This document shows positions 955 to 55,024 of a DNA stretch of 64,000 nt, one piece after another (positions within the stretch are counted from its first letter, which is position 1; each line of letters starts with the position of its first letter). Position numbers and translations under genes: made by a program. The notes beneath the pieces were generated by a model. The model was given only the letters and a program-made list of their open reading frames with translations. It was not told where the DNA came from and ran no database searches. Origin of the DNA: Halopseudomonas sabulinigri (GTDB lineage Bacteria; Pseudomonadota; Gammaproteobacteria; Pseudomonadales; Pseudomonadaceae); the NCBI RefSeq assembly GCF_900105255.1, contig NZ_LT629763.1, positions 496,001 through 560,000 on the forward strand. The letters run 5' to 3'.

Positions 955-1094
955 GCTGGTCGGTTTGGATTGCCGGCTAGCGGCCAAAAGTGGCCGTTAA
1001 AGACTCTATACAAAAACTGGACAGCTCACTTGATGTCTATTAGAGATCTATTGCCGTAGTATCCATGACGTATAAATCACACTCAGGGAAGCGT

Positions 1095-3992
1095 ATGACC
1101 ACCGCATTAGAAAGGACAGCTAAGCTCCAAATATTCATAGATTGGGTCAAAGAACACATTAAGGGCGACGAGAAAGGGGAGGCACAGGTATTCCTCGACC
1201 GTTTTTTCCAAGCTTTTGGCTGGTTGGGTTTGAAAGAGGCTGGTGCCGACTGCGAGGAGCGGGTCAAGAATACAACTGGTGGCACATCCTTTGCCGATTT
1301 GGTCTGGAAGCCCGTTGTGGTCATCGAGATGAAGAAGCGAGGCACCGATCTTAGCAAGCATTACAGTCAGGCATTCACATACTGGACCCGTTTAGTGCCC
1401 AACCGGCCACGTTATGCCGTCTTATGCAACTTTGACGAGTTCTGGATTTATGACTTCGAGACTCAACTCGACACGCCAGTTGACACGATAAAACTATCAG
1501 TGTTGCCTGAAAAATATGGCCCTCTGAACTTCATGTTTCCTGGAGACGTTGTGCCGGTTTTCGGTAACCACCAGGAAACTGTCACGCGCCAGGCTGCAGA
1601 CAAGTTGGCAGCATGCTTCAACTCGATGATAGCCCGAGGCGTTGATAAGCCACTAGCCCAGCGTTTTACATTACAAATGCTCATGGCGTTGTTCTCCGAA
1701 GACATCGGCCTGCTGGAAAAATACCTGGTTACACGAGTTCTTGAAGAATGTAAGAGTCCACAAGATGCTCACGACTTGCTAGGCGGACTATTCCAAGCCA
1801 TGAATGCTAAGGGCGGAGTTAACGGTGGCCGCTTCAAAGGCGTACCTTATTTTAACGGAGGCTTATTTGCAGAACCAGCCTACGTTGAGCTCGCCCATGA
1901 TGAACTGGTACTTCTTAAAGAAGCTGCTCAGTTCGACTGGTCTAAAGTCCGTCCCGAAATATTTGGGACCATTTTTGAACACTCTTTGGGTAAAGAACAA
2001 AGACATGCCTCAGGCGCGCACTTCACAAGCGCAGTGGACATCATGAAAGTTATCGGCCCAACCATTGTCACTCCCTGGACTGAACTTATCGACTCGACCA
2101 CTACTCTCAGTGGTCTACAAAAGATCTTAGCGCGTATTGAACACTTCACGGTCTTGGATCCGGCGTGTGGTAGTGGGAATTTCCTGTACGTCGCTTACAG
2201 AGAGCTCAAGAGACTAGAGGCTCGCATTTACGAGCGTATGGCAGCGGAGTTTAAAAGCGTTGATCCTCAGCAGCGCCCGTTTGGGTTCCTGTCGACCCGG
2301 AACTTTTACGGAATGGACATTAACCCCTTCGCGGTAGATATTGCAAAAGTAACAATGATGCTCGCGCAAAAGTTGAGTATTGATGAGCTTCACATCAACG
2401 AAGCTGCACTACCGTTAGATAACTTAGATAATAATTTTCGAGCGGGAGATGCCCTTATTAATCCAGACGGCTCGCGAGCGCTTTGGTTTAAGACAGATGT
2501 AATCGTAGGTAATCCCCCGTTCTTGGGGGCTAAGCTCTTAAAGCCAGTATATGGTGCGGAATACATCAACATGGTCCGACGCGCCTATCCCGAAGTCCCG
2601 GGTATGGCAGACTTCTGCATATATTGGTTCCGGCGGGCTCATGATGAGCTGCAGGAGTGCACAACAAATAATACCGTTGCTGGTCGCGCAGGCCTTGTAG
2701 GCACACAGAACATTCGAAACAACGCATCACGTGCTGGTGGTCTTGATCACATTACTGCATCAGGAACTATCATTGATGCGGTCGAAAACCAGCCTTGGTC
2801 AGGAGAGGCCAATGTACACGTGTCGATTGCTAACTGGGTAAAAACTCAGGAGAAATCAATCCTCCCAAAGGATCGGCGTCTCTGGTTTGTGATTAAGCCA
2901 TCCGCTGCAAAAAAGCGCAGACTTCGTGGAACGGGATCTGCAGCCAAGCTGTACGAGCTTGATATGCGAGACGTAGCTCACATCAGCTCGTCGCTATCGG
3001 ATCAAGTAGACGTGACAAGCGCAGAACAGCTCTCAATCAACAAAGGATTTTGCTACACCGGGCAATACCCTAGATACAACGATGGTTTTGTTCTTCTGCT
3101 CGCCGAAGGTGTGGCGATGAAGTCCGCTGCAGTTAAAAACTCGGACATTATCCACCTGTTCGCAGGAGGAGATGAGTTGCTTGAGAATGGGAAACCGGAG
3201 CGATACGTAATCGACTTCCAGACCCGGTCCATTCTTGAAGCGCAGGCGTATACGCAGCCTTACAATTATGTGAGGGCAAAGGTGCTCCCTTATGTTCAGG
3301 AACTAGCAGACAAAGAAAGAGAAAGAACGAAAAAAGATAGGGGGCAAGACCAGGGATGGTTGAACACATGGTGGCGGCACTTTCGGGACCGCCCTGAACT
3401 TGTGCGAAAAATAGGAAGCATACCTCGATATTTAGCATGCTCTCGAGTGACCAAACGGCCGATATTTATGTTCTTATCATCAAAGATTAGGCCAAGCGAT
3501 GCCTTGTCATGTTTTCCTTTAGATGATGATTATAGTTTCGGAATATTACAGTCGCAAGCCCACTATACGTGGTTCCATGCGAAATGCTCGAATATGAAAT
3601 CAGATCCGCGCTACACCTCGAATTCTATATTTGGCACATTCCCTTGGCCTCAGACGCCAAGTAGTAAGCAAATTTATGAGGTCGCTGCCGCGGCGCGGGT
3701 CCTGCAAGAAGTCCGATCCAATTCTGCAAAAGAGGGCATAGGTTTAAGAGCTCTCTACCGCACCTTAGACCTTGCCGGTAAAAACCCTCTGAAAGAGGCA
3801 CATGCTTGGTTGGACATCGTAGTGCTCAAGGCTTACGGCTTCTCTAACAAAAAAGACCTTCGGCAACAGCTACTTGATTTGAACTTTCAGGTTGCCAATA
3901 ACATAGCTGAAGGTCTTCCAGTAACTTGCCCAGGTATTCCCGCTAGTTATCCGAGCCCAAACGAGCTGGTGTCAGCTGATTGTTTTCTGTAA
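1095..3992 (+). CDS. MmeI-like Type IIL restriction-modification enzyme
   Basis: Single-chain enzyme of 965 aa that should both methylate and cut DNA, as the MmeI family does (about 900-1000 aa). The N-terminal nuclease shows D68 in FADLVW followed by the E78-x-K80 of VVIEMKK, a PD-(D/E)XK site. A helical spacer holds FNGGLF and IFEHSLG. The methyltransferase has SAM motif I LDPACGSGNF (about residue 354) and catalytic motif NPPF (about 473), an N6-adenine type. The C-terminal third is the target-recognition domain. I place the start at ATG 1095 rather than 1065: AGGGAAG sits just upstream of 1095 and the family begins there. No separate specificity or restriction gene is adjacent, as expected for a stand-alone system. 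The frame is open with all motifs, so it is probably functional. Confidence 0.93.
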   Translation: MTTALERTAKLQIFIDWVKEHIKGDEKGEAQVFLDRFFQAFGWLGLKEAGADCEERVKNTTGGTSFADLVWKPVVVIEMKKRGTDLSKHYSQAFTYWTRLVPNRPRYAVLCNFDEFWIYDFETQLDTPVDTIKLSVLPEKYGPLNFMFPGDVVPVFGNHQETVTRQAADKLAACFNSMIARGVDKPLAQRFTLQMLMALFSEDIGLLEKYLVTRVLEECKSPQDAHDLLGGLFQAMNAKGGVNGGRFKGVPYFNGGLFAEPAYVELAHDELVLLKEAAQFDWSKVRPEIFGTIFEHSLGKEQRHASGAHFTSAVDIMKVIGPTIVTPWTELIDSTTTLSGLQKILARIEHFTVLDPACGSGNFLYVAYRELKRLEARIYERMAAEFKSVDPQQRPFGFLSTRNFYGMDINPFAVDIAKVTMMLAQKLSIDELHINEAALPLDNLDNNFRAGDALINPDGSRALWFKTDVIVGNPPFLGAKLLKPVYGAEYINMVRRAYPEVPGMADFCIYWFRRAHDELQECTTNNTVAGRAGLVGTQNIRNNASRAGGLDHITASGTIIDAVENQPWSGEANVHVSIANWVKTQEKSILPKDRRLWFVIKPSAAKKRRLRGTGSAAKLYELDMRDVAHISSSLSDQVDVTSAEQLSINKGFCYTGQYPRYNDGFVLLLAEGVAMKSAAVKNSDIIHLFAGGDELLENGKPERYVIDFQTRSILEAQAYTQPYNYVRAKVLPYVQELADKERERTKKDRGQDQGWLNTWWRHFRDRPELVRKIGSIPRYLACSRVTKRPIFMFLSSKIRPSDALSCFPLDDDYSFGILQSQAHYTWFHAKCSNMKSDPRYTSNSIFGTFPWPQTPSSKQIYEVAAAARVLQEVRSNSAKEGIGLRALYRTLDLAGKNPLKEAHAWLDIVVLKAYGFSNKKDLRQQLLDLNFQVANNIAEGLPVTCPGIPASYPSPNELVSADCFL

Positions 3993-9368: not shown

Positions 9369-9403
9369 ATGAACACTATAGGGTTACAAACTATAGTGTT
9401 CAT
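9369..9403. promoter_or_regulatory. Perfect 13-bp-arm palindrome, candidate operator (copy A)
   Basis: ATGAACACTATAG, a 9-nt spacer, then CTATAGTGTTCAT: a 13/13 inverted repeat ending 22 nt before the start codon of the ORF at 9426. The same element recurs at 11321 before the paralogue. The position suits a repressor operator over the promoter; TATAGG or TATAGT within the arms could serve as the -10. The binding protein is unknown. Confidence 0.7.
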
Positions 9404-11320: not shown

Positions 11321-11361
11321 GATATGAATACTATAGAGGTACAATCTATAGTGTTCATATC
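11321..11361. promoter_or_regulatory. Palindrome with 16-bp arms, candidate operator (copy B)
   Basis: GATATGAATACTATAG, a 9-nt spacer, then CTATAGTGTTCATATC: 15 of 16 positions pair. It matches the element at 9369 in sequence, spacer length and distance to the start codon (here 18 nt before ATG 11380). Conservation of the dyad while flanking bases drifted supports function as an operator. Confidence 0.7.
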
Positions 11362-12239: not shown

Positions 12240-12410
12240 TCATTCGGTGCGTCTTTTTGGCTCGAAATCTTCCAGATCAGCGATATGCCACCGAGTCGTA
12301 GCCGGACCTAATTTATGCGGTTTCGGAAAAGCCCCGGTGCTCACCCAGCGCCATATAGTGGCTGGGGAAACGCTATATCTTTGGGAAATCTGCTTTACGG
12401 TGAAGTACAT
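12240..12410 (-). CDS. AlpA-like excisionase/regulator, 56 aa
   Basis: Reads MYFTVKQISQRYSVSPATIW, then RWVSTGAFPKPHKLGPATTR and WHIADLEDF. The helix-turn-helix (KQISQRYSVSPATIWRW) and the wing (FPKP..LG....W) are the AlpA/MerR-like pattern of phage and island excisionases that bind the integrase promoter or attachment site. GAGG lies eight bases before the ATG. It is encoded on the same strand as the integrase, 130 nt beyond the integrase stop, a usual arrangement for an integrative element. At 56 aa it may be slightly shorter than typical (about 60-70). Confidence 0.85.
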   Translation of the reverse strand: MYFTVKQISQRYSVSPATIWRWVSTGAFPKPHKLGPATTRWHIADLEDFEPKRRTE

Positions 12411-12541
12411 AGCTGCGACCTCGCTCGGTTATCGATAACCGATAAGTTACCCAACGTGACTGCACCTTTGTTCCGTCTAAATGCCTAATTTCAGCGCCAA
12501 CTCGGGTTTGGCGCAATTTCCTTCCATTTAATCGGTTTTGG

Positions 12542-13894
12542 TTAGCTGGTTCCCATCTTGAGAACATTGCCGGCCATTTTTTGGCCGAGATAATTGGCCC
12601 AGGCCTGCATCAGCTCCTGACGCTCCTCTAGTAAACCGCCTCGAGCGTACGCCGCGCGCGTCTCGTCACTATTTACGTGTGCCAAAGCGAGCTCACTTAG
12701 CTCATCCGGGAAGCTCGAAGTATTTCCGTTTGCCATCACACGGGCAGTGGATTTAAGGCTCCAATCTTTAAAGCTGGACCTTGCTGTGCCATGGGGAGTA
12801 GCAATCCGTCCTTGGTCGGGATCTAGATAGCCCTTGCCTCCTGCTTCCACAGCTGTTGTATGCATGTCCTTAATCAACTTACCCATCGCGGCATCAGACA
12901 GAGCAGCATTCTTGCTATTAGTGAACACCAAACTTTGGCCTCGATATTTTGGGAGAGCCTCGAGCAATGACATCGCAGCATCCGACAGCGGTACCGTATG
13001 ACCTTTGTCAGCTTTCATGCGTTCCGGGCTTAACCGCCATACTCGGCGTTCAAGGTCGATCTCTTCCCAGGTTGCACCTCGAACCTCGCCAGACCGGCCA
13101 GCCGTAAGAATGGCAAACTCCAATGCCTTCGCACTGATGCTCTTTTTTGTTCTGAGGTCTGTCATGAACGAAGACATCTGTTCCACTGGAACGCGGGCGT
13201 GATGCCGTTTACCTGCTTTCTTCCGCACGGCTTTTGACCTGGGCAGCAGCTCTCTTAGCTTGCCCTGCAAGTCCGCTGGATTAGGTCCTGTGCGTAGCTC
13301 CATTGCCGTCGCGTAATCCAGAACGCTGGCAATACGCTGCCTCACTCTCGATGCCGTCTCGTGTTTGGTCAGCCATATTGGTTGCAGCACTTCTACCAGG
13401 TGAGTGGTATCAATGGCACCAACCGGCAGCTTGCCTAGGATAGGAAAGGCATAGGTGGTCAGGGTGTTAATCCATTGGGCGGCATGCTTGCTATTTTTAA
13501 ATTCGGATTGGCGCACCGTGTGGCATTCTTTAGCCACGTCTTCGAATGTCCTTAATTTAGCTCGATCTGCCACCTGGGCCGCCCGTAAAGCTTTCTTCTC
13601 AGCTACGGGATCGATTCCATCACGTAGCTGCTGCCTGAGATCGATGGCTCTTTTACGAGCCTCAGCCAGGCTCACATCCGGAAAACCCCCGAGCCCGTGA
13701 TCGCGGCGAACGGTATAAATCTTTCCAGACGTTGCAGTGCGAAGCTCGCCCGTGGTTGCCCTTAAAATCCAAGAACGTGAGTCACCGCTGCTGATTTTCA
13801 AACCTAGGCCCTTAACTCCGCCCACGGGATAAAATCCAGGTGCTTTTATGGCCTTTACCTGCCTATCAGTTAACACTGCTGCGACCTTCGGCAT
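12542..13894 (-). CDS. Tyrosine-type site-specific integrase (P4-like)
   Basis: 450 aa. Residues about 5-95 form the arm-type DNA-binding domain of the DUF4102 class (LTDRQVKAIKAPG...VKGLGLKISS). A SAM-like core-binding domain follows, and the catalytic domain holds R267 (TAGRSGEVRGATW), H368/R372 (PHGTARSSF), H406 (LALAHV) and nucleophile Y416 (AAYARGG). The HxxR box is spaced HGTAR instead of the common HGFR. It catalyses insertion and excision of the island at an attachment site, normally next to its 5' end, that is near 13.9-14.1 kb. An AlpA-like partner lies downstream. It appears intact, so the island could be mobile. Confidence 0.95.
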   Translation of the reverse strand: MPKVAAVLTDRQVKAIKAPGFYPVGGVKGLGLKISSGDSRSWILRATTGELRTATSGKIYTVRRDHGLGGFPDVSLAEARKRAIDLRQQLRDGIDPVAEKKALRAAQVADRAKLRTFEDVAKECHTVRQSEFKNSKHAAQWINTLTTYAFPILGKLPVGAIDTTHLVEVLQPIWLTKHETASRVRQRIASVLDYATAMELRTGPNPADLQGKLRELLPRSKAVRKKAGKRHHARVPVEQMSSFMTDLRTKKSISAKALEFAILTAGRSGEVRGATWEEIDLERRVWRLSPERMKADKGHTVPLSDAAMSLLEALPKYRGQSLVFTNSKNAALSDAAMGKLIKDMHTTAVEAGGKGYLDPDQGRIATPHGTARSSFKDWSLKSTARVMANGNTSSFPDELSELALAHVNSDETRAAYARGGLLEERQELMQAWANYLGQKMAGNVLKMGTS

Positions 13895-54907: not shown

Positions 54908-54946
54908 GCAGCATCGCTACGCTCGATAACCAGATGAAGAACTAAT

Positions 54947-54976
54947 AAAAAACCCGGCACAGAGGCCGGGTTTTTT
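54947..54976. terminator. Bidirectional rho-independent terminator
   Basis: A 12-bp perfect stem AAAAAACCCGGC / GCCGGGTTTTTT with loop ACAGAG. T-runs on both strands serve the small ORF on the plus strand and the ETF-QO gene on the minus strand, which converge here. Confidence 0.92.
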
Positions 54977-55024
54977 ATTGTGGCTTACAGCTCGGAATTT
55001 CCCGCTGTAACGCGCAGGTTCGCG

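Follow-up and report, generated by a model that had tools for sequence, protein, structure and literature searches.

Organization of the locus

The window, which is the whole stretch of 64,000 nucleotides analyzed here, covers G000:C1:496001-560000 of the 4.03-Mb genome of Halopseudomonas sabulinigri (G000). Two related genes, P0001 and P0002, are each preceded by an inverted repeat with a 35-bp core, and an AbrB/MazE-like gene lies next to the first of them (Table 1). An AlpA-like regulator and a phage-type integrase (window 12240-13894) form an island edge adjoining target gene 2. In addition, an MmeI-like type IIG restriction-methylation enzyme is encoded at window 1065-3992, approximately 5 kb from the operator, and none of the four operator sites in G000 precedes this gene. 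AbrB-like genes are also found beside the target gene in two other genomes (L239:1999-2217, with PF04014 above the cut-off, and L043:2111-2368, below the cut-off); in the first of these, G010, the target gene, the AbrB-like gene and an integrase fragment occur together.

Table 1. Coordinates of the palindrome-associated features in the window.
Feature	Position	Strand	Remarks
AbrB/MazE-like gene, 73 aa	9027..9248	-	Divergent from target gene 1
Operator copy 1	9369..9403	+	35 bp; from sequence and genome pattern search
Sigma-70-like promoter match, TGAACA-16-TATAGT	9370..9397	+	Wholly within copy 1; consensus match only
Target gene 1 (P0001), 156 aa	9426..9896	+	No Pfam, NCBIfam or PADLOC match
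Operator copy 2	11324..11358	+	Same 35-bp frame as copy 1; from sequence comparison
Target gene 2 (P0002), 157 aa	11380..11853	+	Protein 88% identical to target 1

A preliminary description of this DNA had reported a perfect 13-bp palindrome in front of a gene without a known function, and this was confirmed. Copy 1 reads ATGAACACTATAG-N9-CTATAGTGTTCAT, its arms pair perfectly over 13 nt, and it ends 22 nt ahead of the P0001 start codon (ATG). Its half-operators are TATA-centred, with CTATAG at 9376-9381 and 9391-9396; the TATA cores of the operator are 15 bp apart and the CTATAG cores 9 bp apart. A second version with 16-bp arms, described at 11321, is present there (11321-11361), with arms that form 15 of 16 pairs and a single mismatch of T versus G, and the 35-mer of this copy ends 21 nt before the ATG of P0002. 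The spacer is GGTTACAAA in copy 1, where TACA reads towards the target gene, and AGGTACAAT in copy 2. Perfect inverted repeats with arms of at least 13 nt and loops of at most 20 nt occur twice in the window, whereas 60 dinucleotide shuffles had 0.033 on average. A second long perfect inverted repeat at window 54944-54979 (15 nt) has a T-rich 3' arm and is terminator-like.

Both operator copies sit in one duplication (300 nt at 91% and 86 nt at 80%). As products of duplication they are not independent, and their conservation is partly due to descent. They differ at 1 of 26 arm positions, 3 of 9 spacer positions and 10 of 42 positions just upstream. The palindrome also yields the identical TGAACA-16-TATAGT match on the minus strand of copy 1, and two promoter-like consensus matches were found where 0.4 were expected; in copy 2, promoter-like hexamers are present on the minus strand only.

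Distribution of the operator and its association with a regulator gene

A pattern search detected four sites in G000, namely the two in the window, a third at 478811 whose core is perfect and which lies before a gene of 143 aa (P0005), and a fourth at 478193 that has one mismatch and is followed by the P0003 gene on the other strand. No restriction-modification (R-M) gene of G000 is preceded by the operator. Two more places with two mismatches, both without the TACA spacer, look like chance; the control with the reversed pattern scored 21. The exact 14 arm bases were rejected as a genus-wide signature, since 10 sites in 6 of the 37 genus genomes were equalled by 10 in the reversed control. The arm bases alone being non-specific, the spacer was added to the search pattern, and the arms with TACA at no more than one mismatch were found at 61 sites in 49 of 398 Pseudomonadaceae genomes, the family set used for the motif counts, versus two sites with the reversed pattern. 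Specificity comes from the arms together with the TACA in the spacer.

Homologues of P0003 (E<=1e-10) are encoded in 133 of the 398 family genomes, with 48 of the 49 motif genomes having one versus 85 of the 349 others (Fisher p 6e-25). Fifty-two of the 61 sites lie 39-64 bp upstream of the homologue gene, which is on the strand opposite TACA in all 52. The other nine are detached and all belong to the genus of the window (three in G000, three in G010, two in G035 and one in G014). Eight of these stand before genes of the P0001 or P0005 group; for the single G014 site, the homologue search gave no P0003 match and no clear target was seen. The regulator is 79-100% identical in 3 of the 37 genus genomes, the same three that carry the close target family.

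A wider scan, with one genome per species, gave at least 118 stretches, mostly from beta- and gammaproteobacteria (80 listed stretches), and viral contigs contributed three more. Among the matches listed, an HTH gene was found by profile search on the divergent side of 111 of 121 sites, and a 112th (L096) was read by eye. Four of the 121 are truncated where the retrieved sequence stops, and five are left without a detected HTH gene (L105, L154, L165, L166 and L194). The distance between the listed sites and the HTH gene is mostly 42-44 bp.

Two loci of this motif scan contain genuine R-M systems. L150 encodes a MunI-like endonuclease (PF11407, 3.3e-80) and an MT-A70 methylase, while L126 encodes an OkrAI/BamHI-like endonuclease (PF02923, 8.5e-58) and N6/N4 methylases. 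In both, the endonuclease gene is immediately preceded by a C-type gene, and the motif lies slightly more than 40 bp upstream of the C gene; these are the loci in which R-M linkage of the regulator was found among those scanned for R-M genes. Both came from the motif pattern scan itself.

Between the operator and the regulator start, a conserved leader like AAGGCTTCATCGTTCCTTTTGCG has been observed in loci outside the DUF2958 group described below (L046, L057, L059). A similar leader is also present before homologues without a detected operator (L205, L220).

Anatomy of the operator

Read from the regulator side, the consensus of 65 non-redundant operators is AAATGAACA-CTATAG-ATTGTAGCc-CTATAG-.GttCaa. 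The outer G-C pair, a position that was not used by any search, is present in all 65. The preliminary description held that the distance to the start codon is conserved while spacer bases changed. The distance is indeed kept in the two window copies, with three of nine spacer bases changed; the spacer is nevertheless not free, as TGTAG/CTACA is nearly invariant and has a single orientation relative to the regulator gene. The TATA cores of the C.Esp1396I operator are reportedly also 15 bp apart, and its 25OL oligonucleotide is printed with 24 letters.

The cores and CTACA appear more conserved than they are, because most loci were found by the motif. A set free of this bias consisted of 40 additional homologue loci selected on the protein alone, in which the search used symmetry alone and was blind to sequence. 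The 35-mer was recovered in 10 of them, 33-40 bp before the regulator gene start, and all ten belong to the SSR subclass. In these operators, the arms have changed but still match each other (e.g., ATATAT/ATATAT and GAGTG/CACTC). In the shuffle control, the best score was 11 in 11 of 4000 cases and never 12; six of the ten loci score 11 or 12, and the four at 9 or 10 rest on position as well. The 35-mer geometry was not detected by symmetry in the remaining 30 loci, which mostly have regulators of two other subclasses and include three of SSR type (L214, L223 and L228).

Within each arm of the diverged loci, the core is itself palindromic (ATATAT, TTATAA or GTATAC, the last in both arms of L069), which fits two dimers rather than one. 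The site had been called the signature of a dimeric repressor site. A protein-binding operator is well supported, and two tandem or adjacent dimer sites, each TATA-centred in CTATAG, are most likely what it contains, instead of a single one.

The candidate regulator P0003

P0003 is an HTH protein of 93 aa. Its gene, G000:C1:477873-478154, is located outside the window, and the window copy lies 27 kb downstream of it; at this distance, regulator and window sites are linked by sequence. It matches HTH_3 in Pfam (4e-10), and its best PADLOC match is Control_protein (3.2e-12). In a single-sequence comparison with the PDB, the controller (C) proteins C.BclI (3.5e-6) and C.AhdI (1e-4) lead, and C.Esp1396I, QseC (9xz9, E 0.0075), DdrO and others are lower in the list. 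An earlier profile (A2) included two R-M C proteins and hence leaned towards controllers. Profile A3, with 13 members, was built without the R-M members, L142 and L147, and its PDB matches at E<=1e-6 are controller chains only (9/9 rows). The contact residues R35, T36 and Y37 of C.Esp1396I align with R31, T32 and Y33 of P0003, which are invariant in A3, and the contact residue R46 is replaced by K42. Compared with the solved C proteins, P0003 lacks two residues ahead of the recognition helix and is extended at its C-terminus. No R or M genes were seen next to the P0003 gene in the list of open reading frames or by Pfam searches of the neighbours.

P0003 is the best candidate for the protein that binds the palindrome. 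Another island regulator had been named as a possible binder, and P0003 appears to be just that, its gene carrying its own operator copy.

A 71-aa paralogue of the C-terminal half of P0003 that lacks the HTH (P0004; L004:7299-7514, G000:C1:477299-477514) is encoded downstream of the regulator gene in G000 and in two copies in G010, including L241:4430-4645. The pN/pS between the G000 copy and one G010 copy is 0.33, and a single half-operator, CTATAGTGT, is located around 110 bp upstream of P0004. P0004 could be an inhibitor of dimerisation.

Comparison with known controller systems

In the accessible text of three papers, operators of C proteins are described as 35 bp long, bound by two dimers that are TATA-centred, with GT conserved in the centre and TG...CA outside (PMC3758141, PMC4041747, PMC3115060). 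As far as these descriptions go, the operator described here has the same 35 bp, TATA cores, outer TG...CA and central GT as the combined OL and OR sites of R-M systems. Further similarities with the R-M controllers C.Esp1396I, C.AhdI and C.BclI are that P0003 is a small HTH protein with these proteins among its best PDB matches, that the operator is just upstream of the regulator's own gene in G000 and at most other sites, and that the same motif precedes the C genes of the R-M systems in L126 and L150. Unlike in canonical C operators, GAC/GTC C-boxes are absent and the CTATAG cores are flanked by AACA/TGTT; L126 has GACTATAG..GACTATAGTC. The system also differs from R-M C systems in having several detached targets, and neither an R nor an M gene is placed under the operator. 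Judged by homology and by analogy, P0003 is a controller homologue and its circuit would work like an R-M controller circuit. It is classed as an orphan controller and not as an R-M controller because R/M linkage was looked for and not seen.

The available descriptions of C.Csp231I show a C-terminal extension, as in P0003, and a recognition sequence unlike GACT/AGTC; its two operators are separated by an 18-bp gap, unlike the 9 bp between the CTATAG cores here. On the symbiosis element ICEMlSymR7A, according to the accessible parts of two papers, the controller-like regulator QseC is divergent from the small target that it controls (PMC8627217, PMC5882170), and a further source, accessible to the same extent, describes the qseM switch as bistable and QseM as a DUF2285 protein (PMC10359603). 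As far as these sources allow a comparison, the likeness lies in the protein and the gene layout, with an HTH controller-like regulator on a mobile element and a divergent small target. By analogy, QseC/QseM is the known precedent for a controller-type switch on a mobile element. Unlike QseM, 21 members of the target family gave no DUF2285 match in Pfam. C-protein-like factors are also part of phage TF-smORF modules, where, in the portion of the paper available, an XRE-LuxR pair is described as driving a small gene of opposite orientation (PMC10432266). Those modules act in phages on cI, as far as that text goes, and they differ in this from P0002, for which 50,697 phage records gave no match. 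No paper on this regulator-operator family was found in the literature searched, the coverage of which excludes most subscription journals; papers retrieved there with the motif sequence have titles on unrelated subjects.

Proposed regulation and alternative explanations

The favoured reading, to which a probability of roughly 0.8 is given, is that of an orphan C-protein-like operator at which P0003 would bind as two dimers, repress the target genes and adjust its own gene, in a dispersed regulon of four sites. From the site, its geometry, its association and the homology of the regulator, we infer binding, repression, autoregulation and switch behaviour. P0003 would occupy the two TATA cores as adjacent dimers. 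The operator contains promoter-like hexamers, and a controller tetramer on it would keep polymerase off the target promoter; repression of P0001, P0002 and the detached P0005 is likely from this overlap. At the same kind of site before its own gene, the tetramer would set its own level. By analogy with C-protein circuits, low levels of the controller, such as those after arrival in a new cell by transfer, would allow the target to be made first. The usual unit is a regulator and a target that diverge from a shared operator (regulator <- operator -> target), and in G000 the targets would have been duplicated and moved away, giving the small dispersed regulon.

Since classical C proteins can act as activators too, the sign of regulation could vary from gene to gene. 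The same regulator and operator might thus serve mainly to activate the target or the regulator's own promoter, with repression only at high levels. This is consistent with accounts of known C proteins, in the parts of them that are accessible, in which activation is followed by repression, and with the arm distal from the regulator gene, which shows stronger conservation than the proximal arm (21.7 vs 17.2 bits over the 65 non-redundant operators, a set partly picked by motif), as if a strong distal site fills first. On the target side, however, the promoter-like pair is inside the operator, where bound protein should block polymerase, and a mainly activating role is rather unlikely.

The binder suggested in the preliminary description was the neighbouring AbrB/MazE-like protein. 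Its gene is adjacent to the operator, and similar genes are found beside the target in L043 and L239; the operator, however, accompanies the HTH gene and not the AbrB-like gene, with the former on the divergent side at 52 of 61 family sites and at 112 of 121 other sites among those listed. We know of no prediction of the C-operator geometry for MazE-like proteins. This binder was rejected on the association and is considered highly improbable. A role of the inverted repeat in RNA, as a leader hairpin or terminator, has about the same slight chance: the 13-nt arms could pair in a transcript that started upstream, but copy 1 is not followed by a T run, the diverged loci keep self-palindromic TATA cores within each arm, and the hairpin was rejected because the spacer is nearly invariant, unlike a free loop, and promoter-like hexamers lie within the repeat. 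The copies are in islands beside integrases and one was duplicated along with its gene, as might be expected of a mobile repeat or recombination site standing before genes by coincidence; the fixed distance and orientation relative to a single gene family in many genera, together with the compensated arm changes, make this explanation barely credible.

If P0003 acts at these operators as proposed, the controller is apparently reused on mobile DNA for genes of unknown function, and a whole class of switches becomes testable. The signature allows R-M-free controller switches to be found in any genome, and operator-regulator pairs that have diverged together provide natural material on how controller proteins read DNA. 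More tentatively, mobile elements in beta- and gammaproteobacteria may repeatedly have recruited R-M controller switches to control genes that have nothing to do with restriction; the dispersed regulon would then hold a new family of NG...W proteins (~150 aa) as effectors or antiactivators of the element, with P0004 as a possible dominant-negative factor and bistable behaviour.

Target genes

The dN/dS between P0001 and P0002 is 0.16 over 148 codons, which indicates that both target genes are kept as proteins. At most loci outside the DUF2958 group, a divergent gene of ~140-180 aa is found across the operator from the regulator, and an iterated profile unites these genes in one family (77 hits in the loci examined) with a P...NG...W stretch as its signature. 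Pfam gave no match for P0001 or P0002 and three chance-level hits among 21 family members; searches of the family against NCBIfam and PADLOC gave none, and those against PHROG one match each at chance level. A profile search of the PDB gave one match (E 0.95). The AlphaFold2 model of P0002 (pLDDT 84.6) had no Foldseek match in the PDB or BFVD at E<=0.001, and the best Z in a second structural comparison was 4.2; this lack of a match for the model does not show a new fold. Among 15 pattern matches in viral contigs, no relatives of P0002 were found. P0005 aligns with the target family in hhalign with a probability of 20 (E 0.0011), and its G010 homologue matches P0002 at 5.3e-6, weak but suggestive signs in the sequence that P0005 may be a member of this family.

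At 63 of the 121 listed sites, the other side consists of a long leader and a DUF2958-type gene, all in one cluster of 63; DUF2958 and DUF736 were confirmed on one example each. We take the DUF2958-type region at these sites to be typical of integrative conjugative elements. Through the shared operator, a single kind of regulator is tied to this region and to the NG...W family, two groups of mobile-element genes of unknown function. The leaders of the DUF2958 group (L081-L188), of ~100-190 nt, have similar repeats in several frames (GNPxxRIP...), which suggests a short DNA repeat or a structured leader.

On two plasmids (L196 on NZ_CP046903.1 and L197 on NZ_CP026333.1), the regulator-target pair is annotated as an HTH regulator and a hypothetical protein. 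In both cases, an inositol monophosphatase family gene is located downstream of the target, with site-specific integrases nearby.
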